NCBI RefSeq assembly: GCF_900119165.1
Contig: NZ_FPJG01000002.1
Coordinates: 41,872-105,871 of the forward strand
DNA length: 64,000 bases
Direction of reading: 5' to 3'
Source: Amycolatopsis australiensis
GTDB taxonomy: Bacteria; Actinomycetota; Actinomycetes; Mycobacteriales; Pseudonocardiaceae
The translations under genes and the position numbers were made by a program. Position 1 is the stretch's first letter; the number at the start of each line of letters is the position of its first letter. Shown piece after piece: positions 515 to 63,822 of this stretch. The notes under the pieces were generated by a model. The model had not been told where the DNA came from and did no database searches. It was given only the letters and a program-made list of their open reading frames with translations.

Positions 515-1879
515 ATGGCCTACAAGAAGTACACCGCCGAAGACCGCGCCGCGTTCGCCGAGGCCGACGCCGAACTCGCCGACGCCGCCCACCGACTGCT
601 CGCCGACCCCGAGGAAATCGAGCGGCTGGTCACCCACCTGATCACCATCCGCAGCCCCCGCGTCCTGCGGTTCTCCATGCGCAACCAAGCCATGCTGATC
701 AACCAGGCCCGCGAACGCGGAGTCACCCTTACCGACCTGGACACCGCCAAGGGATGGAGCCAGCGCGGCCGCAGCGTCCGCGACGAGGAGCGCGAACACC
801 CCTACCGCCTCACCGTCCCCAAGGGCACCGAAACCGTCGACGGCGACGCCGCCGACCACGACGACCAGGACCACGACGACCACGGCGACGGCGGCGAGGG
901 CAAGAAGACCCGGGGCCGGTTCCGTACGCGTACGTACTACGACCACGCGCAGACCGAAGGTTTCGACGACACCATGCCCGGGTTCCGGCCGTCCACAGTG
1001 GAGGACCCCCAGGCAGTCCTACGCGAAGCGCTGGCCGACCAGCTCGACCGGTTCGGCTACGACGTCGTATTCGACGACGTCGACACCGTCGAGGTCAACG
1101 ACGACGCCGAGCCGCCCGTGATCGCCGTTCCCGCCGACGACCCCGTGATCGGCATGGCCCGCGCCCTCGGCTCCATCCTCAGCCGCCCGCCGAAGGAACG
1201 CCCGCGCCAGCGGCGCGGAGAGCGTGCCCCCGCCGGTGATGCAGGCTGGATCACCGACAAGCCCGTCGGCGCCCGCCGCGTCGTGCTGGACCTCGGGGAG
1301 TTCAAGACCGCCGTTGCATGGGTGATCCCCCACCCCGAAAGCGGCAGCGTCGTCTACAAGGTGACCGGGCGAAGCCTCTACGGCACGTGGACCGTCCACA
1401 GCGAGGACGCCGCCAACCACGACACCATCACATCCGCCACCGTCCAATACGGCGACTACACCGGCGCTGACTACTACAGCTACGGCCAAGCCCCCGGCCT
1501 GCCCAAGGTGAACGGCATCGAGTTGCTCGGCAGTTGCGGGGCAATCACCCCGGACCGGATAGCCCAGCTCGACCGCTACCGCGTCCGGCCCCGCCGCAGC
1601 GACGACGGCGGCCGCAGCAGCCGCGAAGTACCCGACAAGACCGCCGACCGCACCGCCGCCGTCGTACGCGCGATCCTCACCGACTTCTACGCCCGCGACG
1701 ACCTGGACCAGCTCCACCAGGCCCGAGCCCGCCGCGAAGCACCCCACCACCGCGCAACCGCCCACCGTGCTGCTGACCAACTCAAACGACAGATCGACGC
1801 GCTAACCGCCGACCTGGACACCGCCACCCAGGACGCAGCGCGCTACGGCGCGATCGCCGACACCGCGCAGCAGGACTAG
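515..1879 (+). CDS. ArdC-like ssDNA-binding domain protein
   Basis: 454 residues. ATG 515 is chosen because AAGGAGG sits 8 bases upstream; the frame is open further 5' but has no better start. Residues 1-100 resemble the N-terminal single-stranded-DNA-binding domain of ArdC antirestriction proteins (helices around FSMRNQAMLINQ, then GWSQRGRSVR). A His/Asp-rich acidic tract follows at about 110-135, and a helical, probably coiled-coil C-terminus at about 415-454. I see no HExxH metalloprotease motif, so this would be the DNA-binding part plus unknown domains. ArdC-type proteins travel on conjugative elements and protect incoming single-stranded DNA, which fits the neighbouring ParB and relaxase genes. 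One copy of the dispersed palindrome lies in frame at 1235-1255. Confidence 0.65.
   Translation: MAYKKYTAEDRAAFAEADAELADAAHRLLADPEEIERLVTHLITIRSPRVLRFSMRNQAMLINQARERGVTLTDLDTAKGWSQRGRSVRDEEREHPYRLTVPKGTETVDGDAADHDDQDHDDHGDGGEGKKTRGRFRTRTYYDHAQTEGFDDTMPGFRPSTVEDPQAVLREALADQLDRFGYDVVFDDVDTVEVNDDAEPPVIAVPADDPVIGMARALGSILSRPPKERPRQRRGERAPAGDAGWITDKPVGARRVVLDLGEFKTAVAWVIPHPESGSVVYKVTGRSLYGTWTVHSEDAANHDTITSATVQYGDYTGADYYSYGQAPGLPKVNGIELLGSCGAITPDRIAQLDRYRVRPRRSDDGGRSSREVPDKTADRTAAVVRAILTDFYARDDLDQLHQARARREAPHHRATAHRAADQLKRQIDALTADLDTATQDAARYGAIADTAQQD
1235..1255. repeat. dispersed palindrome copy 1, inside a CDS
   Basis: Core GTGATGCAGGCTGGATCAC, a near-perfect palindrome. It is read in frame in the ArdC-like gene as GDAGWIT. 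Confidence 0.8.
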
Positions 1880-1984
1880 CACCACCACCCGAAAACCGCC
1901 CACCCCCAAGCCGGCGACCCACCTCACCGGAACGCCGGCGACCACCACCCCGGAAATGTGGCACAGGTCACTAAGCTGCCAATG

Positions 1985-2011
1985 TCGTAAATCTCGTAAA
2001 TCTGGTAAATT
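1985..2011 (+). promoter_or_regulatory. three tandem 9-bp repeats upstream of the ParB-like gene
   Basis: TCGTAAATC at 1985, TCGTAAATC at 1994 and TGGTAAATT at 2003 are head-to-tail without gaps in an AT-richer patch. They lie 110-137 bp before the ParB-like start in an otherwise featureless 242-bp gap. They could be an operator or centromere-like site bound by a partition protein; this is inferred from position only. Confidence 0.5.
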
Positions 2012-2121: not shown

Positions 2122-3951
2122 ATGACCGCAACGCAGTCACAAACCGCCATCGTTCTTCCTTTCAGCGAGCCCGAGCGGGCCGAGGAAAACCAGGCCGAAA
2201 ACCGAACCGACGAGGTCACCGCGACCGGCGAGGAGTCCGCTGCAGCGGCCGACGCGTCAGCGTTCGTCACGCGCCTGCTCGACCCCACGACCGTCGCTCC
2301 ACACCCGTTCAACAGCGCCATTCGCTCTCAGCCGGACTGGTCCGAGCCCCGATGGGCCGCCCTGCGATCCTCCGTGGCTGAGCGCGGCGGAAACACCGCC
2401 GCCGGAACCGTTGTCACGCTGGAAGCATTCCTGCAGGCCCGTCCGAACCTTGCGGACAAGTTCTCCGAAAACATCAAGTACGTCACGATCTGTGGCCACC
2501 GCCGACGCGCTACCACCGAGGTGACAGGCACTCCGTTCAAGGCCGAGATTGACGATTCCCTCATGGAGAACAATGGAGACATTGTTCGCATGACGGAAGA
2601 CAACAAAAACCGCGAAGACATTTCCGAACTTGAAGAAGCAATCATGTTCGAAAACTACATTCGGGGAGGTGTTTCGCAACGAAGCCTCGCGAAGCTGCTC
2701 ACCGGATACACCCAGCCGACCATTTCGCGACGGCTCGCGCTGCTGAACATGTGCCCGGAAATCCTCGAAGCGATCAACGGGAAAAGTGATCTGTATTACG
2801 ACGAGGTCGAAGAAGACGGCCAGAAGGTCAAGAAGCTTAAGAAGCTGCCCACAGCAGAAGCGGCAGTAATCGCCCAGAAATTCCCCTACGCCGACCCGTC
2901 CAGCCCAGCCAGCAAAAAGGGTGCCACCCTCGACGAGGGACGCCGACGCGCCCAAATCCAGGTCCTCAAGACCATGAATGTACGCGGCCGAGAAACGGGA
3001 TGGAACGTCGAACGAGTCTGCGCCTACGTCGCCCAGGTCATCGAATCGGTCACCACCGCAGAAAAACAGAAAATCAAGCTGATCAAGCCGAGCAAGGAAT
3101 TCGGGTTCGCCGCCGCAGAGCGCCGCCTCACCGATGCAGCCGGAATCACCAAGGCCCGCAAGGCCGGACACCTGGCCGCCGAGGTCGACACCACCACCGG
3201 TGAGCTGGTCTACTACACCACGGCCCCGAAGAAGAAGCCAGAGCCGCCGACCCCGCAGGCCGAGACGCAGACGAAGAGCGCCAGCCCGGTGGCGGCCGCG
3301 CCGAAGACCAAGGCCGAACCCTCAGAATGGGAAATCGCCAAAAAGGCCGAAGAAGCCAACAAGGCCGAGGCGCGAAAGCTGCGCATGGAATCACTTTTGA
3401 AGATCGTGGGCAAGACCCCTCCCCAACGGGAGATTCTTTGGATGTTCGCGCGTAGCTACCACAACGGAATCGCGCAGACCGCCGGTGGCGGAGACGCCGG
3501 GCGACTCGCGCAAAAACTCTGGCTCGAAAGCAATCTCGAACCGACCCTCGGTGACCAATTCCGAGAGCAGATGGCAGAGGAGGAAGACCCCAAACTCGAC
3601 CTCCGCGCCGCCTGGGCACGAATGATCGCAGCCTACGAGCTGCACGCCCGCACCTGGAACGGAATGTGGAACCGTGTAGATATCGAGTATTTCGACCTGC
3701 TCTACCGCATGGATGGCTACACGCCCACCGCGTGGGAGTCTGAGCAGTTGAGCAAGACACGACAGCGGCTCGCCGACCAAGAAGCCGTCGAGGAGCCGGA
3801 CGACGTCGAGGAGCCGGACGACGTCGAGGAGCCGGACGACGTCGAGGAGCCGGACGACGTCGAGGAGCCGGACGACGTCGAGGAGCCGGACGACGTCGAG
3901 GAGCCGGACGACGTCGAGGAGCCGGACGACGTCAAGGCCGACGACCAGTAG
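2122..3951 (+). CDS. ParB/Spo0J-like partition protein with acidic repeat tail
   Basis: 609 residues. The ParB-type N-terminal domain is visible: GHRRRA at 125-130 (equivalent of the GERRxxA nucleotide-binding box), NKNREDISELEEA at 161-173 (box II) and a helix-turn-helix around 184-206 (VSQRSLAKLL ... QPTISRRLALL). The second half is Lys/Glu/Ala-rich and ends in eight tandem EEPDDV repeats, giving a strongly acidic tail. ParB proteins bind centromere sites and in many cases hydrolyse CTP for plasmid or chromosome segregation; some relatives are plasmid regulators. No parA lies next to it, unusual for a complete par operon, so the partner may be elsewhere or it may be a regulator. A strong hairpin terminator follows. 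Confidence 0.75.
   Translation: MTATQSQTAIVLPFSEPERAEENQAENRTDEVTATGEESAAAADASAFVTRLLDPTTVAPHPFNSAIRSQPDWSEPRWAALRSSVAERGGNTAAGTVVTLEAFLQARPNLADKFSENIKYVTICGHRRRATTEVTGTPFKAEIDDSLMENNGDIVRMTEDNKNREDISELEEAIMFENYIRGGVSQRSLAKLLTGYTQPTISRRLALLNMCPEILEAINGKSDLYYDEVEEDGQKVKKLKKLPTAEAAVIAQKFPYADPSSPASKKGATLDEGRRRAQIQVLKTMNVRGRETGWNVERVCAYVAQVIESVTTAEKQKIKLIKPSKEFGFAAAERRLTDAAGITKARKAGHLAAEVDTTTGELVYYTTAPKKKPEPPTPQAETQTKSASPVAAAPKTKAEPSEWEIAKKAEEANKAEARKLRMESLLKIVGKTPPQREILWMFARSYHNGIAQTAGGGDAGRLAQKLWLESNLEPTLGDQFREQMAEEEDPKLDLRAAWARMIAAYELHARTWNGMWNRVDIEYFDLLYRMDGYTPTAWESEQLSKTRQRLADQEAVEEPDDVEEPDDVEEPDDVEEPDDVEEPDDVEEPDDVEEPDDVEEPDDVKADDQ
3790..3933 (+). repeat. eight identical 18-bp tandem repeats encoding EEPDDV
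   Basis: The unit gaggagccggacgacgtc is repeated eight times with no visible mismatch, encoding (EEPDDV)x8 at the C-terminus of the ParB-like protein. Identity at the nucleotide level indicates recent expansion, so copy number probably varies between strains. Confidence 0.95.
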
Positions 3952-4207: not shown

Positions 4208-4226
4208 GTGATTCAGCCTGCATCGA
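4208..4226. repeat. dispersed palindrome copy 2
   Basis: GTGATTCAGCCTGCATCGA, intergenic, just upstream of the TTAAG-rich control region of the KfrA-like gene. Confidence 0.65.
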
Positions 4227-4339: not shown

Positions 4340-5608
4340 ATGAGCGAAGAGCGCGGCGGAGACTCCTCGAAAACCTGTCAGTACCCCGGCGGGGACTACC
4401 CGAGCGAGTGCAGCCGTCCGGCCGCTCCCGACCCAAATACCGGTCGCCCCACGAAGTACTGCTACAAGAAGGACGGTTCAGGCCCGGTCCACTCCAAGGC
4501 CAACGCGTGGAAGGAACGCGACCGGCGGCAAAAGGCAGGCGTCCCGGCCGGCGTCACCTCGACCGGCAGAAGCCAGTCCGCGCTCGACACCATCGATCCG
4601 CTCGACGCCACCGCGCCGCAGACGCGGGCTCACCTCGGAGTCGAGATGAAGCTGTCGGATCTTCCACGGCGGATGCAGGAGTTCACGGACTTCGTACTGA
4701 ACCTGGTGTCCGACGCGGCCACGGCTGGCGACGTCGAGGCCGCCTCAGCGGAAGTAGAAGAAGTACGCCACGACGCCGAAGCGAAAGTGGCCGAAGCGCA
4801 ACGAGAACTCACGAGCGAGCAGCGCCGCCGGCGACAGGCCGAGACCCGCGCCGAAGAAGAGGCCAACGCTCGGGCCGAAGCCGACGCTGCCGCCGCCGAG
4901 GCCGTCGCCGACGTCGAGCGAATCCGAGCCGAAGCGGCCGCAGAAGTCGAGGCCGCCAAGGCGGCTGCAGCTGCCGAAGTCGACGCTGCGCGCGCGGATG
5001 CTGCAGCCAAGATCGAGAACGCCAACCGCGCGACCGAGGCAGCCGCCGCGAGCGAGGCCGCCGCAAAGACCGAGGCCGAGCGAATCCGCGTCGAGTCGGC
5101 TGCCGAAGTCGAACGGATCCGCCGAGAGGCTGAGGCCAGCATCGAGAGCGCTCACCAGGAAGCCGCCCAGGCTGTCACTGGCGCGCAGCGGGATGCGGAT
5201 GCAGAGGTGGCGCGAGTTCGTGAAGAAGCCCAGACCCAGATCCGCGCCGCGAACGATGACGTATCGGCGGCGCGCACCTCCCAGGCTCGAGCCGAAGCCG
5301 AGCTGGAAAGCGTCAAGCGCGCGGCCGCCGAAGACCGGACGACCGCCGAAAACCTCCGAGCCGAACTCCGCGACGTCCGCGAACAACACCGCGCCGAGTT
5401 GTCCGAGATCCGGCAAGACGCTCGCCAGGAACGCGAACAACTACGCTCTGACCACGCGACGCAAACCGCGGACCTGCGGAGCACACTTCGTGCCCGCGAC
5501 GAAGTCATCGAGCGACTCCGGCAGCAGCTCGAATCGACGCGCCCAGCGGCCGAGCCCGGACCCGGATCGTCCGGGCCGGCCCCCGGCAGCCGCCCGAAGA
5601 CGCGGTGA
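4340..5608 (+). CDS. KfrA-like coiled-coil plasmid protein
   Basis: 422 residues from ATG 4340. The N-terminus (1-60) has three cysteines in TCQYPGG, ECSRPAAP and RPTKYC, resembling a small zinc-binding module, followed by a helical region to about 140. Residues 140-405 are almost pure alternating Ala/Glu/Arg heptads with no helix breakers, a long coiled coil as in KfrA and related plasmid stability proteins. Such proteins bind DNA through the N-terminus and polymerise through the coil to help segregation or nucleoid binding. The operator-like inverted repeats directly upstream fit autoregulation. The repetitive Ala/Glu codons produce long shadow frames on both strands, which are not genes. 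Exact family uncertain. Confidence 0.6.
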   Translation: MSEERGGDSSKTCQYPGGDYPSECSRPAAPDPNTGRPTKYCYKKDGSGPVHSKANAWKERDRRQKAGVPAGVTSTGRSQSALDTIDPLDATAPQTRAHLGVEMKLSDLPRRMQEFTDFVLNLVSDAATAGDVEAASAEVEEVRHDAEAKVAEAQRELTSEQRRRRQAETRAEEEANARAEADAAAAEAVADVERIRAEAAAEVEAAKAAAAAEVDAARADAAAKIENANRATEAAAASEAAAKTEAERIRVESAAEVERIRREAEASIESAHQEAAQAVTGAQRDADAEVARVREEAQTQIRAANDDVSAARTSQARAEAELESVKRAAAEDRTTAENLRAELRDVREQHRAELSEIRQDARQEREQLRSDHATQTADLRSTLRARDEVIERLRQQLESTRPAAEPGPGSSGPAPGSRPKTR

Positions 5609-5649
5609 ACGGGACCCGCGCACCGAGGAGTCACGCCGCCGGTGCGCGC

Positions 5650-5667
5650 GATGCCGCCTGAATCACC
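5650..5667. repeat. dispersed palindrome copy 3, overlapping a stop codon
   Basis: GATGCCGCCTGAATCACC, a diverged copy. It contains the TGA stop of the minus-strand gene that ends at 5663. Confidence 0.55.
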
Positions 5668-9973: not shown

Positions 9974-9977
<4 letters not shown>

Positions 9978-10020
9978 TGCAGGCTGGATCAGGGCTTCCG
10001 CCTGATCCAGCCTGCATCAG
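9974..10020. repeat. paired inverted copies of the dispersed palindrome (hairpin)
   Basis: Two copies face each other: GTGATGCAGGCTGGATCAGG at 9974 and its 19-base complement starting at 10001, separated by 7 bases. Together they can form a stem of about 19 bp between convergent genes, and they carry the TGA stop codons of both. The pair may serve as a bidirectional terminator. Confidence 0.85.
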
Positions 10021-10694: not shown

Positions 10695-13600
10695 GGGACT
10701 TCGCCGCGAGTGCGCGCAGGTCCAGCGGGGTGATCTGGTCGGCGACCACCGACGCGGTGCCCTGGGTGACCTGGGCCTGGCCCCGGATGACCAACGCCGA
10801 GCTGGTGGCCAGGATCTGTCTGAATTTCGTCCAGGTACTGGGGTGGACAACTACGTTGATCATGCCGGTCTCGTCTTCGAGGTTGAGGAAGGTGATCCCG
10901 GCGGCTGTGGCAGGCCTCTGCTTGTGGGTGACCGCGCCGCCGACGCGGATGCGGCTGCGGTCGGCGACGTCGAGCACGCGGGCGGCCGGGATAACGCCGA
11001 GTTCGTCGAGGTGTTCGCGCACGAACGTGACGGGGTGGCGGTCGGGGGTGATGCCGGTGGCCCAGACGTCGGCGGCGGCGACCTCGAGGGCGGTCATGCC
11101 CGGCAGCGCGGGCGCGTTGACGCCGGTGGCGATGCCGGGCAGGTGCCCGGCCCGGGTGCGGGCCGCCGCACCGGCGGCCCACAGGGCTTGCCGGCGGTCC
11201 GGGCCCAGCGCGGTGAACGCCCCGGCGGTGGCCAAGGCCTCTGCCACGGGCTGCTTGAGCTGCACGCGCTCGGTCAGCTCGCCGATGCTGCCGTACGGGC
11301 CGTTCTTCTCGCGCTCGGCGACGATCGTCTCGGCGACGTCGGTGCCGACCTGGCGGATCCCGGCCAGCCCGAGCCGCAGCGCCACCCCGCCCGTCGACGC
11401 CGGGTCGGGTTCCAGCGTCGCGTGCGCGAGGCTGGCGTTGATGTCCGGCTCGCGGGTGAGGACGCCGTGGCGGCGGGCGTCGGCGACGAGGGATTGCGGG
11501 CTGTAGAAGCCCATCGGCTGCGCGCGCAGCAGCCCGGCGCAGAACGCGGCGGGGTAGTAGCGCTTGAACCAGGCGCTCGCGTAGACCAGCAGCGCGAAGG
11601 ACATCGAGTGGGCTTCGGGGAAGCCGTAGCCGGAGAAGGCGTGGATCTGCTCGAAGATTCGCGTCGCGAGCTCGCGGTCGATGCCGTTGGCGGCGCAGCC
11701 GGCGAAGAACCGGCCCATCAGCGCCTTCATCTTCGCGTCCGAGCGTTTCGCGCCCATCGCGCGGCGCAGCTGGTCGGCCTCGGCCGCGGTGAAGCTGGCG
11801 ACGTCGCGGGCCATCTGCATCACTTGCTCCTGGAACAAGGGGACGCCGAGCGTGCGGTCCAAGCTGTCGGCGAGCAAGGGGTGGGCGTGGCGCCAGGTTT
11901 CCTCGCCGCGCCGGCGCCGGATGTAGGGGTGCACTGATCCACCCTGAATCGGCCCGGGGCGGATCAGCGCGACCTCGACGACCAGGTCGTAGAACTTCCG
12001 GGGCCGCAGCCGGGGCAGCGTGCCGAGCTGGGCGCGGCTCTCCACCTGGAACACCCCGATCGCGTCGGCTTCGCACAGCATGTCGTAGACCTTCGGGTCG
12101 GCCAGGTCCAGCTCGCCGAGGTCGACCTCGCGGCCGTGATGCTCGGCGACAAGATCGATCGAATACCGCAGCGCCGAGAGCATCCCGAGCCCGAGCAGGT
12201 CGAACTTGACCAGCCCGATCTCGGCGCAGTCGTCCTTGTCCCACTGCAGCACCGTCCGGCCTTCGGCGCGGGCCCACTCGACCGGGACGATCTCCGAGAC
12301 CGGGGTGTGGGCGATGACCATCCCGCCGGAGTGCACGCCGAGGTGGCGCGGGGAGTCCTCCAGCCGCGCGGCCAGCTCCCGGACGTCGTCGGGCATCCCG
12401 TGCCCGCGCTCGCCCGGGGTGTCGGCGTCAGCGACCGTGCGCCACCGGTCGACGGCCTTGGCGAAAGCGTCCTGCTGGCCGGGGCTGTGCCCGAGCGCCT
12501 TGGCCGCGTCCCGGACCGCCGAGCGCGCGCGATAGGTGATGACATTGGCGACCTGGGCGGCGTGCAGCCGGCCATGCCGCTCGTAGACGTACTGAATCGC
12601 CTCCTCCCGCCGGTCGGACTCGATATCGACGTCGATATCCGGCGGCCCATCCCGCTCCGGGGCCAGGAACCTTTCGAAGAGCAGGCCCCAGCGGACCGGG
12701 TCGCAGTGGGAGATGAACAGCGCGAAGCAGACCGCCGAGTTCGCCGCCGAGCCGCGGCCCTGGGCGAGGATGCCGCGTTCGCGGCAGAAGCGGACGATGT
12801 CCCACACCACCAGGAAGTAGCCCGGGAACCCGAGTTCGCGGATCACCCGCAGTTCGTGTTCGAGCTGGGCGTAGGCCTCCGGCGCCTCGTCCGGGGTCCC
12901 GTAGCGGGCGGCCGCGCCCTCCATCACCAGGTGCCGCAGGTAGGCGTCCTCGTCGCCATGGCCGGGCGGAACCGGGAACGGCGGCAAGCGCGGCGCGACG
13001 AGCGCGAGGTCGAAAGAGCACTCGACGCCGAGCACCGCGGCGCGGGCGACCGCGCCCGGGTACCGGCGCTCGAACGCGCGCAGCTGCTCGGCCCCGGAGC
13101 GCAGGTACGCCGTCCCGGCCGCCGGCAGCCAGCCTTCGAGGTCCTCGACCGAGCGGCGCGCGCGGATCGCGGCGACGGCGTCGGCGTGCCACGCGTCGTC
13201 CGGGCCCGCGAAGTGCACGTTGTTCGACACCACCGTCGGCAGCCCCAGGTGCTTTGCCATGGCGGAGAGGTGGTCGTTATGGCTGCTGTCGAGCGGCTGG
13301 CGGTGGTCGATCAGCTCTACCGCGACGTGGTCGCGGCCGAACCGGTCGACCAGCAGCGCGAGTTCCTCGGCGGCCGCGGCCGGGCCCCGAGCGACGAGGG
13401 CCTGGCGGACGGCGCCCTTGCGGCAGCCGGTCAGCACCTGCACGTGCCCGGCCAGCTCGTCGACGACCTCGTCCAGGTCGTAGACCGGGCGGCCCTTCTC
13501 CTCCCCGGCGAGCTGGGCGTGGGAGATCACCCGGCACAACCGCCGGTAGCCCTCCGGCGTCCGGGCCAGCGCCAGCAGGTGCGTACCCTCCGGGTCCGGG

Positions 13601-14497: not shown

Positions 14498-14557
14498 CGG
14501 CCCCGGACGAAGGGAGCGTCGCCGGGCAGGCCACCGAGGCTGACGTGCCAGAGCATC

Positions 14558-14575
14558 GATTCCGCCTGCATCAGT
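14558..14575. repeat. dispersed palindrome copy, downstream of the small gene at 14201
   Basis: GATTCCGCCTGCATCAGT, a half-degenerate copy 61 bp after the stop codon. Confidence 0.5.
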
Positions 14576-17364: not shown

Positions 17365-17384
17365 GCGATGCAGGCTGCATCAGC
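17365..17384. repeat. dispersed palindrome copy, intergenic
   Basis: GCGATGCAGGCTGCATCAGC, an even-centred perfect inner palindrome (GATGCAGGCTGCATC except the centre), between two minus-strand genes. Confidence 0.7.
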
Positions 17385-18942: not shown

Positions 18943-20343
18943 GTGAACATGACGCGATCAGCAGACATCGCGGTGATCGGCGCGGGCATCGTCGGCCTGG
19001 CGTGCGCGCTGGAACTCGCGCAGGCCGGAACCTCGGTCGCGGTGGTCGCGCCGCGAACCGGCGACCACGCCGGCCAGGCCAGCCGCGCGGCCGGAGCGAT
19101 GCTCACGGTGTTCTCCGAGGTGGAAGCCGCGCACCCACAGCAGCGGGTCGAGGTTGAAGTGGCGGAGCGGGTCGCTGCTCGCGCGGGCTACGACGCCTGG
19201 CTGGAACAGGTAGCCGACCTCGCCGGCCGACCGGCCCCGGCACTCACGCCCGGTGTCTGGGTGACCGCCAGCGTCCCGGCCGACCGCGGAGAACTCGCCG
19301 CCATCGCGGCGGCCGCAGCGAACGCCGGGCTGGCCGGGCAGCTGCACTCACCCGGCGATGTGCCCGGCCTGCACTCGAAGTCGGTGTTCGAGGCCCTGTG
19401 GCTGCCGGGGGAAGCAGGAGTCGACGCCGGCGAACTGGTCGCGGCGGCCGCGGCCGCCGCGATGGCCCACCCCCGGATCGCCTGGTTCGACGCTGATGCA
19501 TCCCGCATCACCGACAACGGAACTGATCTGCGGATCGAGGTCACCGACGGCGAGCCGGTCACCGCAGAGCACCTGGTCCTGGCCGCCGGCGTGCAGACCT
19601 CGGCGATCGTGCGCCGCTCCCCCGGCCTCGCCCTGGACCTCCCGCCCGTCTTGGCCGGACGCGGGGTCAGCATGATGCTGCAGGCCGTTCCGGAACGGGT
19701 CGAGTCCCCGATCCGGACCCCGAACCGCGGCTTCGCGTGCGGCGCGCACCTGGTCGCCCGCTCCGACGGGCGGACCTACCTCGGCGCGACGAACCGGCTC
19801 AGCACCCGGCCCGAGCCCGGCCGGCGGGCCAGCGTCGACGAGATCGCCACGCTGCTGCACGACGGCGTTCACGAGCTCAACGCCGGGCTCCGCGACGCCC
19901 AAGTGACCGACGTCCGCGTCGGATACCGGCCGTACACCGTCGACCACCTGCCACTCGTCGGCCGGACCGCGAACCACAAGGTGCTGGTGGCGACCGCGAC
20001 CTACCGGTGTGGAATCCTGCTCGCTCCTCGGGTGGCCACGCTGATCCGCAGCGAACTCGAGCACCCCGGCACCCTCGACGACCATTCGTACTCGCCGCGA
20101 CGGGCCATGCCCGTGCCCGACCTGGCCCAGCTCGTCCACGGCCGCGGTGACGCCTTGGCAGAGTTGCTGTGCCAGCCCGGCGGTCATCTGCCGGGCGGCG
20201 CCGTCGACCAGCTGGGCTCGGTGCTGTGCGCCGCTCTCGTCCACCAGCACGCCGATCCGGCGGTGCGGCGGCTCACCCGCAGCGCGCCCGTCGAAGAAGT
20301 TCTGCCGCTGCTCCTCGACGTCGCCGGGCGGAGCACACGATGA
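18943..20343 (+). CDS. FAD-dependent oxidoreductase (glycine/D-amino-acid oxidase type)
   Basis: 466 residues; GTG 18943 or ATG 18949 both sit after GGGAGCGGG. The FAD Rossmann motif VIGAGIVGLACALELAQAG is at residues 8-26, and the DAO-type C-terminal strand GYRPYTVDHLPLVGRT near 325-340. Such enzymes oxidise amines or amino acids with release of peroxide. A C-terminal extension of about 85 residues (after HPGTLDD) is unusual. It overlaps the next gene by 4 bases, so product channelling with the ACP-acyltransferase fusion is plausible. Confidence 0.75.
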   Translation: MNMTRSADIAVIGAGIVGLACALELAQAGTSVAVVAPRTGDHAGQASRAAGAMLTVFSEVEAAHPQQRVEVEVAERVAARAGYDAWLEQVADLAGRPAPALTPGVWVTASVPADRGELAAIAAAAANAGLAGQLHSPGDVPGLHSKSVFEALWLPGEAGVDAGELVAAAAAAAMAHPRIAWFDADASRITDNGTDLRIEVTDGEPVTAEHLVLAAGVQTSAIVRRSPGLALDLPPVLAGRGVSMMLQAVPERVESPIRTPNRGFACGAHLVARSDGRTYLGATNRLSTRPEPGRRASVDEIATLLHDGVHELNAGLRDAQVTDVRVGYRPYTVDHLPLVGRTANHKVLVATATYRCGILLAPRVATLIRSELEHPGTLDDHSYSPRRAMPVPDLAQLVHGRGDALAELLCQPGGHLPGGAVDQLGSVLCAALVHQHADPAVRRLTRSAPVEEVLPLLLDVAGRSTR

Positions 20344-21776: not shown

Positions 21777-21793
21777 CGGCTCACAACCTGGCC

Positions 21794-21811
21794 GATCCAG
21801 GCTGAATCACC
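21794..21811. repeat. dispersed palindrome copy, after the NUDIX gene
   Basis: GATCCAGGCTGAATCACC, 17 bp past the stop codon, in terminator position. Confidence 0.6.
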
Positions 21812-22515: not shown

Positions 22516-22885
22516 CGAGTCACGCTCCTCTCCTGTCTCCTTCCTCCTCGTCCGTCAGCGCACTGACATCACCAGCAACTCGGTGGATCGCACCGCAGCA
22601 TGCCGGTGCAACTCCAGGATAGGGGCTCCGAGCCCAAGTTGGCGCTCCCTACGGCAGCCGTACACCGCTTTTGCTCAGTTCCGCGGGAATACTGGTACAG
22701 CCATCCGAGCGGCCCTCTCAGCTTCGGGGCGTCTGAGGGATTTCGCTGCGGCCGAACTCTGCAACGGGCGCCTGCATCGGCTCGGACAGCCTGCCGTGCG
22801 TGCCCCACCTCGACGGACACCCGGCGCCCTTTCGGTGCTGGAAGGCCACGCAGGACTCCGACGCGCCGGAGCGGCCGCACGTGCC

Positions 22886-22950
22886 TGATCCAGGCTGAAT
22901 CAGCCAGAAGCAGCTCGTCCGCGTCAGCTCTCCGATCCCGCCTGCATCGC
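22886..22950. repeat. two dispersed palindrome copies
   Basis: TGATCCAGGCTGAATCA at 22886-22902 and GATCCCGCCTGCATCGC at 22934-22950. The second lies at the C-terminal end of the coupling-protein relic. Confidence 0.6.
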
Positions 22951-26445: not shown

Positions 26446-26497
26446 CCTCGGCTGGCTACCGATGGTGCGCCGCGCCGCGAGAGATTCTCGTCAGCGA

Positions 26498-26516
26498 CGA
26501 TCCAGCCTGCATCATT
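26498..26516. repeat. dispersed palindrome copy, after the XRE gene
   Basis: CGATCCAGCCTGCATCATT, 52 bp downstream of the XRE stop. The 17-bp motif CGTATAACGCCGTGTAC (26533) follows. Confidence 0.6.
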
Positions 26517-26574: not shown

Positions 26575-26994
26575 TCACCGACCGCGGCGCGACTGCTCTT
26601 TCCGCGGAATCTCCTCTGTGTCATAGGAAGGTGGCTGCACATGCCGGGCCCGCGTCGGGTCGGTGTGCGAGCGCGGCGTACACGCGGCGAACGGCCCGTT
26701 CTCCCCCAGCAACTGCAGCAGCATCGGGTCGAGGTGGTCGCGATGCCAGACCGACAGCCCGATCCCGGGTTCGGCGACCAGCTCCTGCCACGCCCGATGG
26801 CAGGCGGCGAAGCGCGCCCACGCCTCCGCGTGGGCCCACCATCGACTACACCAGTGCATCCCCGGCCGGCCGAGCGGCCGCAGGTACACCGGAAACACCG
26901 TCGTCTCCAGCCACCGCACCAGCTCGGCGGGATCCCACGTGGACGGCTCCGGCTCCTTCTTGGACTTCTTCTTGCCCGATCCAGCCTGCATCAC
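26575..26994 (-). CDS. DUF4913 family protein
   Basis: 139 residues. GTG 26994 or ATG 26991 overlaps the stop of the coupling-protein gene, and the start lies in a copy of the dispersed palindrome, so the protein opens MMQAGSG. The core ELVRWLETTVFPVYLRPL, WCSRWWAHAEA, and LSVWHRDHLDPMLLQLL is typical of DUF4913, a Trp-rich family linked to actinobacterial conjugation loci. Function unknown. Last gene of the transfer operon. Confidence 0.75.
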   Translation of the reverse strand: MMQAGSGKKKSKKEPEPSTWDPAELVRWLETTVFPVYLRPLGRPGMHWCSRWWAHAEAWARFAACHRAWQELVAEPGIGLSVWHRDHLDPMLLQLLGENGPFAACTPRSHTDPTRARHVQPPSYDTEEIPRKEQSRRGR

Positions 26995-31775: not shown

Positions 31776-31796
31776 GGTGATGCAGGCGGCATCGCC
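31776..31796. repeat. dispersed palindrome copy between two transfer genes
   Basis: Core GTGATGCAGGCGGCATCGC, in the 46-bp gap between the VirB6-like and SCO6880-like genes, in the only gap besides 33239-33257 that breaks the run of overlapping genes. Confidence 0.65.
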
Positions 31797-35801: not shown

Positions 35802-36335
35802 TCACCCGCCCGCCACTGCGGCGTCGACCAGCCACCGGCCATCGACCAGGCTCATTCGCCGGTCGTCGCGGAACGGGCTCGACACCAGCCCGTCATCGCT
35901 GAGCACGACCCGTTTGGCGGTGATCGCGACGTAGACGTGCGCGTCGCCGCGGGGGCCGTCGGTCAGCCACACCGAGAACGTCGAGCAGGTCGCGGACTCG
36001 TGGGTGCCGACGACGTCGCGCTGCCACGTGTCGGCCGCCGTGGGCACCAGGGCCCGGCCGGCTTCCGCGGTCATCAGCTCGCGGGCCCGCGCTTCGCGGG
36101 CGCCGAACGGGTCCTTCCAGGACCAGCCGCACCACCGGGTCGCCCACTCCCGGGCGGCGGAGACCGCCGGATGCTCGGAGGTACTGCTCGGCGGGGCGCT
36201 CGTGCCCACGCTCGGCACCGGTGATGGAGGCTGGATCGACGCGGTGGACGACGGCACGGGCGAGGGCGCGGTGACGGCGCATCCGGCCACGACCACCGCG
36301 GCGGGCAGACAGAAAACGGGCAGCACAAAACGCAC
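35802..36335 (-). CDS. lipoprotein of the conjugation operon
   Basis: 177 residues. Signal peptide with lipobox VVAGC (residues 15-19), then a Pro/Ser linker (with palindrome-encoded SIQPPSP) and a globular domain with VSAAREWATRWCGWSWKDPF. First gene of the minus-strand transfer operon. No family recognised; by position it may sit on the outer face of the membrane near the channel. Confidence 0.6.
   Translation of the reverse strand: MRFVLPVFCLPAAVVVAGCAVTAPSPVPSSTASIQPPSPVPSVGTSAPPSSTSEHPAVSAAREWATRWCGWSWKDPFGAREARARELMTAEAGRALVPTAADTWQRDVVGTHESATCSTFSVWLTDGPRGDAHVYVAITAKRVVLSDDGLVSSPFRDDRRMSLVDGRWLVDAAVAGG
36220..36240. repeat. dispersed palindrome copy inside the lipoprotein gene
   Basis: GTGATGGAGGCTGGATCGAC, a diverged copy encoding IQPPSP in the linker. 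Confidence 0.6.
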
Positions 36336-37152: not shown

Positions 37153-37173
37153 GGTGATGCAGCCTGCATCACC
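37153..37173. repeat. dispersed palindrome copy, perfect
   Basis: Arms GGTGATGCAG and CTGCATCACC around a single C: a perfect 10-bp inverted repeat, between two convergent genes in a gene-free stretch (37106-37344). The rest of that stretch holds nothing evident. Confidence 0.85.
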
Positions 37174-39513: not shown

Positions 39514-39528
39514 ACCCAGCTCTATTGC

Positions 39529-39546
39529 GATTCCGGCTGCATCACT
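39529..39546. repeat. dispersed palindrome copy after the DUF397 gene
   Basis: GATTCCGGCTGCATCACT, 15 bp past the stop codon. Confidence 0.55.
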
Positions 39547-41392: not shown

Positions 41393-41895
41393 CCCCGGCC
41401 CACGGCTGGCGGCCGCCCGAAGTGCGTCCGGACAGCAAGATCTACGCTGGCGGCCTCTTCCGCAGCGAGCTGCTGCACTGCGTTCCCTACGGCGCCACCC
41501 CGATGCGCCTCGACAGCACGAACGCGGCAGCACTCGGCCTGATCAACACCTACGTCGTCTTCGCCCGCTGCGGCGCCGCCTGCCGCCCAGTCGTCGCCGA
41601 CCTCGCCACGGACCCGCGCGAGCACTGCACGGACTGCTGGGCGCGGTCGGACCCCGCGGCCGTCGAGCACCACCGCGACGACGTGGTGCAGCTCGAACCG
41701 GCCGACCACGAAGTCCGATGGCCGCCCGAATCCACACCCCTCGTGAACCGGCCGGCAGCCGCCATCCGCGCTGCCGCCCGGCTCCTGCCCGGCAACGTCC
41801 TGCTCGGCCACCTGCCGCCGCGCCGATGCCTACTCCCCGCCAGCACGACCGATCCAGCCTGCATCACCGCGCCAGCAAACTCCCGCGCGGCCTGA
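41389..41895 (+). CDS. hypothetical protein with CxxxC and CxxC motifs
   Basis: 168 residues from ATG 41389. The centre has FARCGAACRP and HCTDCWARS, a four-cysteine arrangement suited to one zinc. The last part contains a palindrome copy (TDPACITAP). Function unknown; probably part of the plus-strand operon starting near 40.9 kb. Confidence 0.5.
   Translation: MTPAHGWRPPEVRPDSKIYAGGLFRSELLHCVPYGATPMRLDSTNAAALGLINTYVVFARCGAACRPVVADLATDPREHCTDCWARSDPAAVEHHRDDVVQLEPADHEVRWPPESTPLVNRPAAAIRAAARLLPGNVLLGHLPPRRCLLPASTTDPACITAPANSRAA
41850..41868. repeat. dispersed palindrome copy at the end of a CDS
   Basis: CGATCCAGCCTGCATCACC, read in frame as DPACIT, 27 bp before the stop codon of the gene ending at 41895. 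Confidence 0.65.
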
Positions 41896-44550: not shown

Positions 44551-44603
44551 CCGGTCCCGGCCGCTGGTAACGACCGGGACCGGGCGATACCGCCTGCATC
44601 ACC
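44551..44603 (+). terminator. hairpin after the S1 protease, followed by a palindrome copy
   Basis: CCGGTCCCGG and CCGGGACCGG at 44551-44583, then the dispersed palindrome copy ATACCGCCTGCATCACC (44587-44603). Confidence 0.65.
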
Positions 44604-45204: not shown

Positions 45205-45872
45205 CCGCGCCCCGGAAGCTGCGGCTCCGCAGCGTCTTCGCGCGCCGCCCACGCCGGGAACGCTGCCGATCCAGCCTGCATCATCAGCTGGCTTTCCGGC
45301 AGACGGCGCCCTTGGTGACAGCACCACAGCACGACGAAGGCGTCGGGGTTTTCGTCGCGGTGTGGGGCCTCGCCGGCGCGGCCGGTGCCGCCGCCGTGAC
45401 CTGGAGCGGCCGGTTCTACCTCCCGTACCCGCAGTTCGCCGTCGCCGTGATCGGGGCGGGCCTTCTCGGCGCGGCGACCGGCGCGGGACTCGCGTCTCGG
45501 CTGCCACGGTTGGTGTCTCCCGCGTGGGTAGAGGCACTGACCTCGGTGCCGTGGACGCTCGTGGTCCTGGTCGCCGTCTACGTCCACGGCGACGCGGGCG
45601 ACCTCCCGGCCAATCCCCGCGCGGACCTCGACACCTACCGCGGCGGCTGCCTCACCAGAACCGACTACAGCAGCCACACCGCCGCGCACCTCTACCTCGA
45701 CAACACCACCGTCACCGTCGAGCCAGCCCACGCCGGCCCGCCCCTGCGATTCCACCGCACCGGCCACTACTTCGGGCCCTTCACCGCCGAACGCGCCCAG
45801 ATCGACGGTGAAGGCATCACGCCCGCCGACTCAGGCACCCGAGCCCTCCTGGCCAGCCTCGGCTGCCACTGA
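45201..45872 (+). CDS. membrane protein with small C-terminal domain
   Basis: 223 residues from GTG 45201. A basic N-terminus (with palindrome-encoded RSSLHHQ), then three membrane helices between about 48 and 135 (VFVAVWGLAGAAGAAAVTW, FAVAVIGAGLLGAATGAG, WTLVVLVAVYVHG), then a soluble tail. Function unknown. Confidence 0.55.
   Translation: MTAPRKLRLRSVFARRPRRERCRSSLHHQLAFRQTAPLVTAPQHDEGVGVFVAVWGLAGAAGAAAVTWSGRFYLPYPQFAVAVIGAGLLGAATGAGLASRLPRLVSPAWVEALTSVPWTLVVLVAVYVHGDAGDLPANPRADLDTYRGGCLTRTDYSSHTAAHLYLDNTTVTVEPAHAGPPLRFHRTGHYFGPFTAERAQIDGEGITPADSGTRALLASLGCH
45267..45285. repeat. dispersed palindrome copy inside a CDS
   Basis: CGATCCAGCCTGCATCATC, read as RSSLHH in the membrane protein gene, a different frame from the IPPASP type. 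Confidence 0.65.
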
Positions 45873-47850: not shown

Positions 47851-47866
47851 GCCGGACCATCCCAAC

Positions 47867-47885
47867 CGATCCAGCCCGCATCACC
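47867..47885. repeat. dispersed palindrome copy, intergenic
   Basis: CGATCCAGCCCGCATCACC, 17 bp after the stop of the winged-helix gene. Confidence 0.65.
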
Positions 47886-48144: not shown

Positions 48145-48611
48145 TTCTCCCCCAGACCAACCGCGAACAGCGCGACGCCCAGATCGTTGACGCCTACACC
48201 AGCGGCGACAACGAGCAGCAGGTCGCTGAGCGCTTCGGCCTCACCGTCGCCACGATCGAGAAGATCCTCGACGACAAGCAGGTCGGCGTCGTCCGTAGTG
48301 GACGCAACTACCGCCTCCACCGCAAGACCTACGAAGCAGGCACCACGATCCGCGCGCTCGCCCGCAACGCCGGCGTCAGCTACTCAACCATGCACAAAGG
48401 ACTCGCCGACGTCGGCACCACCTTCCGGCCTCACGGCGGGAACTCCCGAACGGTTCCCGTGACCGCGACCGGCGCCGTCCGGGAACCGCAGTCCGCGCGA
48501 GGAGAGCGCACCGCCTCGGCGAGCCTCCCGGACTCCCGCACCACAGGCCGCTCGGCGCCGCTGATCCAGCCTGCATCACCGACCTCCCGCAACCTCGGAG
48601 CACGCCGATGA
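48141..48611 (+). CDS. helix-turn-helix protein (156 aa)
   Basis: ATG 48141. Two HTH-like units: AYTSGDNEQQVAERFGLTVA and TIRALARNAGVSYSTMHKGL, the pattern of tandem small DNA-binding domains that act on short sites. Basic, disordered tail with the palindrome-encoded LIQPASP. Overlaps the methyltransferase gene. Confidence 0.65.
   Translation: MILPQTNREQRDAQIVDAYTSGDNEQQVAERFGLTVATIEKILDDKQVGVVRSGRNYRLHRKTYEAGTTIRALARNAGVSYSTMHKGLADVGTTFRPHGGNSRTVPVTATGAVREPQSARGERTASASLPDSRTTGRSAPLIQPASPTSRNLGARR
48562..48580. repeat. dispersed palindrome copy inside the HTH gene
   Basis: TGATCCAGCCTGCATCACC, encoding IQPASP. Confidence 0.7.
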
Positions 48612-49840: not shown

Positions 49841-49856
49841 GCGGCTCCCGCACACC

Positions 49857-49875
49857 CGATCCATCCTGCATCACC
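49857..49875. repeat. dispersed palindrome copy after the PCMT-like gene
   Basis: CGATCCATCCTGCATCACC, 17 bp past the stop codon, like the copies at 21794 and 47867. Confidence 0.6.
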
Positions 49876-53230: not shown

Positions 53231-53263
53231 TGGTGGGGTGATCCAGGCTGGATCACCCCACCA
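53231..53263. terminator. extended dispersed palindrome forming a 16-bp hairpin
   Basis: Arms TGGTGGGGTGATCCAG and its perfect complement around a single G. It holds the dispersed-palindrome core, lengthened by flanking GTGGGG/CCCCAC, and sits between convergent genes. Confidence 0.85.
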
Positions 53264-55555: not shown

Positions 55556-55582
55556 GGAGGTGATGCAGGCGGGATCACCTCC
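55556..55582. repeat. dispersed palindrome copy with extended arms
   Basis: Inner core GTGATGCAGGCGGGATCAC within flanking GGAG/CTCC, between the convergent P450 and LuxR-type genes, where it can act as a bidirectional terminator. Confidence 0.75.
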
Positions 55583-58107: not shown

Positions 58108-58127
58108 GTTATGCAGGCCGAATCAGG
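58108..58127. repeat. dispersed palindrome copy at the stop of the EspR-like gene
   Basis: GTTATGCAGGCCGAATCAGG, diverged; overlaps the TGA of the minus-strand gene at 58123. Confidence 0.45.
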
Positions 58128-59052: not shown

Positions 59053-59073
59053 GGTGATGCAGCCCGCATCACC
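59053..59073. repeat. dispersed palindrome copy before the gene at 59100
   Basis: Core GTGATGCAGCCCGCATCAC, 27 bp before the start codon. Confidence 0.75.
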
Positions 59074-59099
59074 GCGAGCGGACCTTTGGGGGAACGTTC

Positions 59100-60069: not shown

Positions 60070-60507
60070 ATGAAGAGCCGCAACGACACCACCCGCCCCC
60101 CGGCGCGACGGCATCGGCGCGCTCTTCTCGCGGTCGCCGGCGTCGCGGCCGCCGCGCTCGCAGGATGCTCCAACTCGCCTCCGCCCGCTCCTGCTCCCCC
60201 GCCGCCGATCCCGCCTGCATCACCGGTTCCACTACCGCCGCCGGGCACCGACGGTCCGGAACTGACGATCGACGGGCAGGTCACCTGGACGATGCCCCAC
60301 CCAGGATGCGTTCAACTGGCCATCGGCTCACAGGTTTTCACCCTGGTCGGACCGGCCGCAGAGAGCCGGTCCGGCGCAGTCCGCGCAGGAACCGCGCCGC
60401 ACTCCGAACGCGTGCGGATCACCGGCTACGTCGCCCGCGTCGGCGCGTCGGTCTGCGGCGCGCAGCGAAACCTCGTCGCACAACGAATCGAACCCACCAC
60501 CGGATAA
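60070..60507 (+). CDS. small secreted lipoprotein (145 aa)
   Basis: ATG 60070 after GAAGGACAAC. Signal peptide with lipobox LAGC (residues 30-33), proline linker with palindrome-encoded PIPPASP, then a domain (DGQVTWTMPHPGCVQLAIGS, VRITGYVARVGASVC) with two cysteines that could form a disulfide. Function unknown. Confidence 0.65.
   Translation: MKSRNDTTRPPARRHRRALLAVAGVAAAALAGCSNSPPPAPAPPPPIPPASPVPLPPPGTDGPELTIDGQVTWTMPHPGCVQLAIGSQVFTLVGPAAESRSGAVRAGTAPHSERVRITGYVARVGASVCGAQRNLVAQRIEPTTG
60207..60225. repeat. dispersed palindrome copy inside the lipoprotein gene
   Basis: GATCCCGCCTGCATCACCG, in frame as IPPASP in the Pro-rich linker. Confidence 0.7.
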
Positions 60508-60536
60508 TTCCAAAAACGCAAAAGTGCCACTCTTCA

Positions 60537-60841: not shown

Positions 60842-62798
60842 ATGGCAGTACGACCTTCCCGCGCGGCCGGCCTCATCGCCGGATGCGCGGTACTCGTGGG
60901 AATCGCCGCCGCACCGGCCGCGACCGCCCAGGACAACACCGCGCCCGACGGCCGCGCCGCGGTCGAAGGCTCGGTTCCCACCTGGGCCACACCCGCCGCC
61001 CGAGTCGGCCACGCCGACCCCGGCCAGCACCGCCGCGTTCAGGTCGCGCTCGCCCTGCGCGACCCCGCCGGAGCCGAAGCCCTCGCGAAAGCCGTGTCCA
61101 CGCCGGGCTCGCCGCAGTACGGCCAGCACCTCGGCAACGCCGAGTTCCTCGCCCGCTTCGGGCCGACCCAGGAAAGCGTCGACCAGGTCACGACCTGGCT
61201 GCGTAGCCAAGGCCTGCGCGTGACCGGCGTCGCCGGGAACCGCCACTACGTCGAGGCCGACGCCGACGTCGCCCAGCTGCAGACCGCGTTCCGGACCAGC
61301 CTGGCGACCTACCGCCACACCACGCGCGACGGCCGCACGCACGTCCTCGCCGCGCCGGAGTCCGCCGTCACCGTCCCGGCCGCCATCCGCGGCACCGTCA
61401 CCGCCGTTCTCGGTCTCGACGACTCGAGCAAGACCATCACCCCGGCCCAGGCCACCGCCATCCGCCCGGACGGCACCCGCCCCGGCGTCACCCCGGCGGC
61501 CGGCGACCCCAACAGCTGCGCCCGCTTCTGGGCCGAGACCAACAACGCGAACGTGCCGCAGAAGTACGCCACCGGTCAGCAGAGCAACGCCCTCTGCGGC
61601 TACACCAGCCCCCAGCTGCGCGCGATCTACGGCCTGCCCAGCTCGGCCACCGGCGCCGGGCAGACCGTCGGCATCGTCGGCGCATACAACCTGTCCACCA
61701 TCGTCGGCGACACCAACCGCGCCGCCGGGCAGTTCGGCGCACCGGCGCTGACCAGCGGCCAGTACAGCGCCGTCCTCCCCGGCACCTTCACCGACCAGGA
61801 CCGCTGCGGGCCCGACTCGTGGGCCAGCGAGCAGGCGCTCGACGTCCAGGCCATCCACGAAGTCGCCCCGGCCGCGCGGATCACCTACTACGCGGGCAAG
61901 AGCTGCCTCGACCTGTTCAACACCCTCAACAAGGCCGTCGCCGACAACAAGGTCAGCGTCATCAACAACTCGTGGCTCTACCCCGGCGAGAGCACCGTCT
62001 CGCAGGCCGAACGCGACCAGATCGGCGCCATCGCCGTCCAGGCCGCCATTCAGGGCCAGGCCATCCTGTTCGCCTCCGGGGACTCCGGCGACAACTCCGC
62101 CCCGGCCGCAGCCGGGCGCGCCGAAGCCAGCTATCCGGCCTCGCACCCGTGGGTCACCGCCGTCGGCGGCACCTCGGTGGCGCTCGACGCCAGCAACCGC
62201 GTGAAGTTCCAGACCGGCTGGGAAAACAGCGGAAACACCCAGTCCGGCAGCGCCTGGACCCCGCAGACCGACGCCGACGGCCGCTTCGCCGGTGGCGCCG
62301 GTGGCGGCGTCAGCAAGATCTACGACCAGCCCGACTACCAGCAGGGTGTCGTCCCGGCCGCGATCGCCGGCGGCCACCGCGCCGTCCCGGACATCTCCGC
62401 CCTCGCCGACTCCTACACCGGCCTGGCGATCGGCTTCACCACCCCGCAGGGCTACGCCGCCTACTCCAGCGGCGGGACGTCGCTCGCCGCGCCGATCCTC
62501 GTCGGCCTGGTCGCCAACGCCCAGCAGGCCCACGGCGGCGACCGGCTCGGCTTCCTCAACGCCGCGCTCTACGCACTCAGCGGAAAGGCGCAGATCACCG
62601 ACGTGAAGCCGGTCAAGGCCGGGATCTGGTCGCCGTACATGGCCGGTTTCGGATCCGTGACCGTGCCCACGGCGTCCGGCTCGTACCTGCTCGACCTCGA
62701 CAGCAAGCCCCAGACGCTGCAGTCCGGCACCGGCTGGGACCCGGTGACCGGCGTCGGCACCCCGGCCCGCCGGCTTCGTCTCCGCTCTCGGCCAGTAG
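60842..62798 (+). CDS. secreted S53 peptidase (sedolisin family), 3' frameshift
   Basis: About 650 residues from ATG 60842. Sec signal (AGLIAGCAVLVGIAAAPAAT), pro-domain to about 200, and a complete catalytic set: Glu330 and Asp334 in SEQALDVQAI, Asp414 in ASGDSGD and Ser547 in SSGGTSLAAP. Sedolisins are acid-active serine-carboxyl peptidases matured by self-cleavage. Near 62765 the natural end GFVSALGQ plus TAG lies one frame over, so the given sequence runs on out of frame; it is probably an indel in a C/G-rich run. Confidence 0.85.
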
Positions 62799-62873
62799 CA
62801 CCCCGGGGTGGCTGCCGACCCGGGGGCGGCAGCCACCTCGCCCCATCACCTCAACCAGGAAGGAGGTCGCGCC

Positions 62874-63822
62874 GTGGCCGACGACACCGAGCACCAGGAC
62901 CAGCCCACCGCCGTCGACGTCACCAGCCCGGCCACGCCCGCCCGCGGCCGCCACCGCCGCCCAGCCGCCGAGTCCGCCCGCAACCGCCGCGGTACTCGCT
63001 GGGCCATCGGCATCCTCGCCGCGCTCGCCGTCCTCGGCGCGCTCACGTGGGCCGGCTGCGGCACCGGCGGATCCGACGCGGTGATTCAGCGTGGATCGTT
63101 CGCACGCATGGGGATCGACGTCGACGACGTCGCCGTGATCGAGCCCGAGCCGGTCACGCGCAGCAGCTCGCCGGACTCCCCGCGCCGACACCTTCGGCGC
63201 CGTGCCGCCGCACCGGCCGACCCGCGCCGCGCGACGTCCCCAGCGGCCGCCTGGCCCACCCGACCGCCGTAATCCCGGTTTACGCCGCCCCCGGCGGCCC
63301 GGCGATCGCCGCGCTGCCGCCCACCGAACTCGTCAGCGATACCTGGCTGCCCGTCGTCGCCGAGCAACCCGGGTGGGCCGAGGTCCTGCTGCCTACCCGG
63401 CCGAACGACCGAGCCGGATGGCTCTACCTTGACGACACCGTCAGCACCGCCCACAGCTCGTACCGGCTCGAGGTCGACCGCGCCCGGTTCACCCTCGACC
63501 TGTACCGCGAAGGAGCGCGGGTCGGGCACTGGACGGTCGGGGTCGGCAAGCCCGGCTCGCCGACCCCGGTGACCCGCACGTTCATCCTCGCGTCCATCAA
63601 GGACGTCCGCCCGACCTTTTCGCCGATCGTCCTTCCGACCGGCGCCCACAGCGACACCTACTCCACCTACGGCGGCGGCCCGGAACGGTGGGCCTGCACA
63701 CCTGGCCCACCGCCGACGTCTATGGCCGCCCCAGTTCTGACGGCTGCGTCCGGATTCCGCCGGACGCGCTGCAGGTGATCAGCACGCAGGTCCCGATCGG
63801 GTCCCCGGTGCTGATCCGGTGA
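62874..63822 (+). pseudogene. L,D-transpeptidase (YkuD) with two apparent frameshifts
   Basis: GTG 62874 follows AGGAAGGAGG. The frame gives an N-terminal anchor (RWAIGILAALAVLGALTW). Between 63140 and 63250 the coherent frame changes to one that reads VIPVYAAPGGPAIAALPP (SH3-like) and the YkuD start RFTLDLYREGARVGHWTVGV. Near 63688 it changes again to GLHTWPTADVYGRPSSDGCV, the catalytic HxxxxxxxxxxxSxGC end, then TGA 63822. YkuD enzymes cross-link peptidoglycan. Either decayed or, given neighbours, affected by sequence errors. Confidence 0.6.
63080..63098. repeat. dispersed palindrome copy, diverged, inside a gene
   Basis: GGTGATTCAGCGTGGATCG, read as VIQRGS in the transpeptidase frame. Confidence 0.4.

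Follow-up and report, generated by a model that had tools for sequence, protein, structure and literature searches.

A dispersed 19-bp palindrome as the predicted replicon-wide binding site of a ParB-like protein on an Amycolatopsis plasmid

Identification of the dispersed dyads

The DNA analysed here, referred to as the window, is a stretch of 64,000 nucleotides (nt) of Amycolatopsis australiensis, bases 41872-105871 of contig C2 (105,871 bp) in a 9.31-Mb assembly. It contains a gene for a ParB-like protein, a coiled-coil gene 3' of it with a layout that we take to be KfrA-like, a row of transfer genes and 35 copies of a 19-bp palindrome (dyad) scattered along its length (Table 1). We argue that these dyads are probably sites of parS type to which the ParB encoded on the plasmid itself would bind.

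Table 1. Positions of the dyads and of the parB-like and coiled-coil genes in the window
Feature	Position	Strand	Remark
dyad	1236..1254	.	GTGATGCAGGCTGGATCAC, within gene
parB-like gene, 609 aa	2122..3951	+	GHRRR box, ENxxR-like box, helix-turn-helix (HTH), long C-terminal region with acidic tandem repeats at end
dyad	3131..3149	.	within parB
dyad	4208..4226	.	256 nt 3' of parB
coiled-coil gene, 422 aa, 3' of parB	4340..5608	+	weak SMC coiled-coil match
dyad	5648..5666	.	weight-matrix site
dyad	9974..9992	.	end of left-hand + gene falls within site
dyad	10002..10020	.	end of right-hand - gene falls within site
dyad, weaker	11934..11952	.	within error-prone DNA polymerase gene
dyad	14556..14574	.	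weight-matrix site
dyad	17365..17383	.	weight-matrix site
dyad	19493..19511	.	within gene
dyad	21792..21810	.	15 nt past stop codon
dyad	22885..22903	.	weight-matrix site
dyad	22932..22950	.	weight-matrix site
dyad	26497..26515	.	weight-matrix site
dyad	26976..26994	.	overlaps 3' end of coupling-protein gene
dyad	28460..28478	.	within gene
dyad	30250..30268	.	short gap in transfer gene row
dyad	31777..31795	.	short gap in transfer gene row
dyad, paired with 34767	34743..34761	.	gap in transfer gene row
dyad, paired with 34743	34767..34785	.	weight-matrix site
dyad, weakest of window	36221..36239	.	weight-matrix site
dyad	37154..37172	.	GTGATGCAGCCTGCATCAC
dyad	39527..39545	.	13 nt past stop codon
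dyad	41849..41867	.	weight-matrix site
dyad	44584..44602	.	weight-matrix site
dyad	45266..45284	.	weight-matrix site
dyad	47866..47884	.	15 nt past stop codon
dyad	48561..48579	.	weight-matrix site
dyad	49856..49874	.	15 nt past stop codon
dyad	53238..53256	.	GTGATCCAGGCTGGATCAC, gap of convergent genes
dyad	55560..55578	.	gap of convergent genes
dyad	58108..58126	.	weight-matrix site
dyad	59054..59072	.	weight-matrix site
dyad	60205..60223	.	weight-matrix site
dyad	63081..63099	.	within gene

A preliminary description of this DNA had listed 32 copies of the palindrome and suggested a comparison with shuffled sequence. With up to 3 mismatches allowed, the consensus matched the window at 29 places, whereas 100 dinucleotide-preserving shuffles gave 0.06 on average (standard deviation 0.24). 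All 32 copies were confirmed: each listed position lies within 5 bases of a site called by a symmetric weight matrix that was derived from the dyads themselves. This matrix identified 35 dyads in the window, including three (3131, 11934 and 19493) beyond the earlier list. On the non-redundant circle described below, 53 places reached the threshold score of at least 12, compared with 1.0 per shuffle in five second-order Markov shuffles. The dyad is 19 bp long and palindromic around a 1-bp centre, with the core GATNCAG-S-CTGNATC; the earlier consensus stands as regards the repeat itself, with the correction that bases 6 and 14 and the central base are variable. That no named element is known with this consensus was a fair statement: two 19-mers of this type were absent from the text of the best-ranked 15 of 1,916 papers (figures and supplements lying outside that search).

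Distribution among replicons and genomes

The ends of contig C2 (1-12979 and 92886-105871, the latter corresponding to window 51015-64000) consist of the same 13 kb, at 99.75% identity with small indels. Because its ends repeat each other, C2 is most simply, and probably, a circular plasmid of about 92.9 kb that was assembled with a 13-kb overlap; it is referred to below as plasmid A. The best plasmid DNA match to a 12-kb query from it was from Amycolatopsis and covered 27% of the query. A search of the whole genome allowing up to 3 mismatches gave 51 places, against 5 for a reversed-pattern control; among the 50 places listed, C2 had 44, or 40 once its duplicated end is set aside, and the rest of the genome had 6, one of which, with 2 mismatches, may be real. 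The element is thus dense on this replicon and near control level in the remainder, rather than genome-wide as had been considered.

An exact copy of GTGATNCAGNCTGNATCAC was present in 7 of 80 genomes of the genus, and in four of these several copies shared one contig. Three of the contigs carry sites plasmid-wide at a density of one per 1.3-1.8 kb: plasmid A (genome G000, 53 sites), plasmid B (G012, contig C25, 68,243 bp, 49 sites) and plasmid C of Amycolatopsis roodepoortensis DSM 46661 (G044, contig C7, 66,754 bp, 51 sites). The fourth, from G062 (contig C64, 27,148 bp), has 7 sites within 6 kb and also bears genes that resemble those for transposases and integrases, as well as relatives of plasmid genes. 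Across 390 genomes of the family, 11 had an exact copy, and one further genome, from another genus (G090), had several.

Placement and conservation of the sites

Genes were called with a simple codon-usage script, so placement numbers are approximate. Intergenic sites accounted for 40 of 53, 40 of 49 and 39 of 51 sites in plasmids A, B and C, respectively, against 10.9, 17.6 and 11.7 expected from circular shifts; the observed count was reached by 0, 0 and 1 of 2000 shifts. Distances to stop and start codons were determined for intergenic sites with both neighbouring genes. The sites favoured gene ends: a stop codon lay no more than 30 nt away in 13/40, 12/38 and 17/39 cases (null 7-10%), and no more than 100 nt away in 26/40, 23/38 and 28/39. 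In addition, a called gene ends inside the dyad at 22 of all 153 sites, frequently at the TGA within GTGAT, and sites in gaps between convergent genes were in excess (14/40, 7/38 and 12/39).

These placements bear on the possibility that ParB does bind the dyads but that the dispersed copies control transcription, as a plasmid-wide silencer or elongation roadblock resembling KorB of RK2 or the stoperators bound by certain mycobacteriophage repressors. Promoter-side operators should cluster at gene starts, where no enrichment was found (4/40, 0/38 and 0/39 within 30 nt, null 7-11%), and the excess in convergent gaps is unexpected under promoter repression. Both observations count against repression of promoters and neither against a roadblock, and we regard transcriptional control overall as unlikely, though a serious competitor.

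Spacing was more even than under uniform placement in plasmid A (largest gap 4326 against 8013 expected, 0 of 3000 trials) and plasmid B (3899 against 6236, P 0.010). The comparison of orthologous loci suggested in the preliminary description was carried out for plasmids B and C: all 26 B sites in alignable blocks are sites at the same places in C, although the two plasmids are diverged: identity was 0.933 in the sites, compared with 0.732 in flanks of 40 nt. A single site of C lacks a called counterpart in B, which has a one-base insertion there. Covariation of the arms, as in a hairpin, exceeded shuffles in only 1 of 15 tests on the three plasmids. Bases 6 and 14 were complementary less often than in shuffles (10/53, 8/49 and 15/51 in A, B and C), and perfect palindromes may be selected against; one half of the dyad tends to GATGC and the other to GATCC.

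The preliminary description had left two options, a repetitive extragenic palindromic (REP)-like element or a protein-binding site. A mobile palindrome spread by a transposase would account for copies that are dispersed and mostly intergenic, as these are. It is disfavoured by the missing arm covariation, by the conservation of positions between B and C with sites far more alike than flanks, by the even spacing in plasmids A and B and by the association of dyads with parB elsewhere (see below); moreover, the flanks look unrelated by eye past a base or two. We consider this origin highly improbable. The protein-binding half of the suggestion is retained, with a replicon-wide scope.

The ParB-like protein

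Plasmids A, B and C share a gene for a ParB-like protein. The protein of the window matched TIGR00180 with E 5e-9 (36 bits, cut-off 58), the HTH_ParB family PF17762 with 20.5 bits (cut-off 22.6) and the Noc model TIGR04285 with E 2e-6, far under its cut-off; no KorB-specific model was among its Pfam or NCBIfam matches. Its relatives are annotated as members of the ParB/RepB/Spo0J family, the close ones are from Amycolatopsis, and those in plasmids B and C share 38-43% identity with it. A GxxRR-type CTP box, an ENxxR-type box (DNKNR in the window protein) and the HTH are present in order. Across 11 aligned sequences GHRRR and N161 were invariant and R164 nearly so; the ParB of plasmid B has GARRR. 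An AlphaFold model matched structures of KorB, ParB and Noc, with the expected fold in the N-terminal and HTH domains. The acidic tandem repeats (EEPDDV) that end the protein lie at about 3770-3948 of the window; the relatives in B and C are also acidic-tailed, and the contig of plasmid B ends inside the acidic repeats of its ParB gene.

With 16 first-look candidates scored per genome, the gene was detected at E 1e-15 in three of the 80 genomes of the genus. These are precisely the hosts of plasmids A, B and C, and each has a replicon dense in sites. For G090, which has 8 exact sites, a ParB was predicted from the sites and then found (E 1e-210). In the window, dyads at 3131 and 4208 are near parB, with no parA adjoining, and in plasmid C the order parB-parA is kept with a dyad in the gap. 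A second, ordinary ParA-ParB pair of plasmid A lies outside the window, at C2 32239-34696 (L005:12239-14696).

Dyads at ParB loci of other plasmids and genera

Regions chosen solely for encoding a ParB relative were then scanned for dyads. All 22 further ParB loci (plasmid C itself, L045, being left out of the genome loci) had 19-bp dyads with a 1-bp centre near parB, one of them degenerate dyads only; several loci are from closely related Rhodococcus, so not all are independent. Thirteen of these were plasmid regions with the same ParB family, all with dyads near parB under a filter that required AT in the arm and also passed a few unrelated dyads. A de novo scan of the first five gave GTGATGCAG, GTGATGCAC, TGATGCGC or GTTATGC half-sites, and found no such dyads in a control plasmid region without this ParB (L034). 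Near-perfect dyads were present in 8 of the 9 genome loci; the ninth, from Actinokineospora (L046), had 5 degenerate dyads by consensus scan and none de novo. In all 11 annotated plasmid loci a dyad occupies the parB-parA gap, and eight of these loci have a near-perfect dyad 108-171 nt before the annotated start of parB. Of two Streptomyces loci whose ParB is of another type, one had no dyad and the other a weak match. A Streptomyces plasmid with a different ParB (L044) carries two copies of CTGATAACGCCGTTATCAG, a 19-bp dyad with a 1-bp centre, within parB, 799 and 877 nt after its start, which are perhaps the plasmid's own parS.

The ParBs of the mycobacterial, rhodococcal and Gordonia plasmids share approximately 28-37% identity with the window protein. 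The HTH residue equivalent to its R187 was R in 21 of 23 proteins; it was S in Gordonia (L032) and A in Mycolicibacterium TY66 (L039), and both of these have T instead of G at site base 3. Other site bases also differ in L030, L037 and L039. This covariation does no more than suggest that the residue reads site base 3, which makes R187 a candidate recognition residue.

Another DNA-binding protein of the plasmid, for example the HTH regulator encoded at 39810-40694, might occupy the dispersed sites, with the link to ParB secondary. Several conserved plasmid proteins lack a known domain, and G062, with sites and no detected ParB, has on its site-bearing contig a gene for a relative of this regulator (31% over 259 residues). 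Against this stand the dyads at parB-parA in plasmids of other genera and the change of site base 3 along with the HTH of ParB, and we consider such a protein improbable.

Most exact sites on the other plasmids are close to parB. Counted over whole records, a 615-kb plasmid has all 5 of its copies of GTGATGCNNNNNGCATCAC in a 3.3-kb stretch at parB, and a 984-kb plasmid has all 13 in the 13.2 kb around that gene. On a 401-kb plasmid a stretch of 14 kb contains 12 of the 13 copies, and on a 1.36-Mb plasmid one of 16.3 kb contains 26 of the 27. Distant copies made up 1 of 4, 4 of 9 and 3 of 7 on three mycobacterial plasmids, three whole records had no exact copy, and pRHL1 was counted without positions. 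A Rhodococcus koreensis locus (L048) has 44 dyad copies in 21 kb around parB, some of them in regular arrays, which is intermediate between a small cluster and dispersal over a whole plasmid.

Dyads as predicted loading sites of ParB

We read the dyads as predicted parS-type sites, spread over the replicon in such a way that the plasmid's own ParB would load at about 50 places and coat the whole molecule instead of loading at a single centromere-like spot, and estimate the probability of this reading, made from sequence comparison, at about 0.72. It builds on the sites themselves, their even spacing (clear in two of the three plasmids), their preference for gene ends, their conservation and the linkage of the dyad to the ParB family. 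Proteins of this family form clamps that load at a dyad, close with cytidine triphosphate (CTP) and slide, as described in PMC8429893. By homology, dimers of the window ParB would bind the dyad with one HTH per half-site, and the bound protein would close as a CTP-dependent clamp and slide into neighbouring DNA. Loading sites each 1.3-1.8 kb could keep every stretch reachable though transcription clears clamps, so that the whole plasmid would be compacted and handled as one partition complex; sites at gene ends might serve as loading platforms that spare promoters. The arrangement around a parB-parA pair, as in the relatives, is the probable ancestral state.

A stronger version, which we put forward tentatively and at somewhat less than even odds, is that of a holocentric plasmid, with a diffuse centromere of about 50 evenly spaced parS sites that are kept by selection and biased to gene ends, a CTP-clamp ParB that coats and compacts the replicon, and captured cargo that must gain sites.

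Several results weigh against ParB loading at the dyads. The window protein falls under both curated family cut-offs (Pfam and NCBIfam), and its AlphaFold model is of moderate quality (predicted local distance difference test 72, predicted template modelling score 0.50). Plasmid A has no classic site directly upstream of parB, the nearest being about 870 nt off. As parA lies directly 3' of parB only in plasmid C, plasmid A has its separate ParA-ParB pair elsewhere and no clear ParA was found in plasmid B, a role in partition is not assured. Spacing in plasmid C was not clearly even against uniform placement (largest gap P 0.29, coefficient of variation P 0.09), the covariation at base 3 rests on two changes, and the gene survey of the genus scored only 16 first-look candidates per genome. 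The results that fit least are those from G062, in which no ParB relative was detected despite its 7 sites, and from six genomes with a single exact copy (G045, G057, G076, G144, G249 and G303), in which the gene was not found. The sites of G062 are probably a fossil island; of four chromosomal single copies, two (L024 and L027) are beside relatives of plasmid genes and two (L025 and L026) are not.

Comparison with known systems

Dispersed sites of ParB-family proteins are already known from Noc and KorB. KorB of RK2 (IncP-1) has about a dozen O_B sites, whereas the plasmids described here have about 50 sites of a different dyad; KorB operators lie upstream of promoters, whereas the present sites, as judged by gene calls, favour gene ends. 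Noc of Bacillus with its binding sites (NBS) resembles the present case in combining a ParB-type protein with sites scattered round the replicon (PMC8429893), binding being predicted here; unlike in Bacillus, the sites are on a plasmid and at one per 1.3-1.8 kb. A further likeness is to the ParB-ParA cassettes of mycobacterial, rhodococcal and Gordonia plasmids, which have a homologous ParB and dyads of the same length and centre; their exact sites are mostly around parB-parA, some of these plasmids also having a few distant ones, and are not plasmid-wide at the density of plasmids A-C. In Streptomyces, the target of ParB2 of plasmid SCP1 is an inverted repeat of 19 bp (parS2) that has a 15-bp core, with three sites around the operon and no binding reported elsewhere (PMC13245405); the two systems, both an actinobacterial plasmid ParB with a 19-bp repeat, are likened by description. 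Stoperators of mycobacteriophages are likewise dispersed sites, of a repressor; according to PMC9283540, they differ in being asymmetric sites of a monomeric phage repressor. Our literature searches found no report of the dispersed dyads described here.

The usual picture of a plasmid centromere is a single compact cluster next to the par operon. The ParB family described here occurs with its dyads in two states, concentrated at the parB-parA pair in Mycobacteriales plasmids and spread over the entire plasmid in Amycolatopsis, apparently also in Actinokineospora. Given its dozens of natural sites, its candidate residue for site recognition and its probable fossil islands in chromosomes, the system offers a natural test bed for the sliding range of ParB clamps, for what stops them and for how a partition site may become a coat or silencer that spans a replicon.

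Other genes of the plasmid

The error-prone DNA polymerase gene at window 10681-14031 has relatives on plasmids of Amycolatopsis, Tsukamurella and Burkholderia. At C2 29818-31148 (L005:9818-11148) a gene with a DddA-like deaminase domain precedes one of the Imm1 immunity type, and relatives occur on plasmids B and C.

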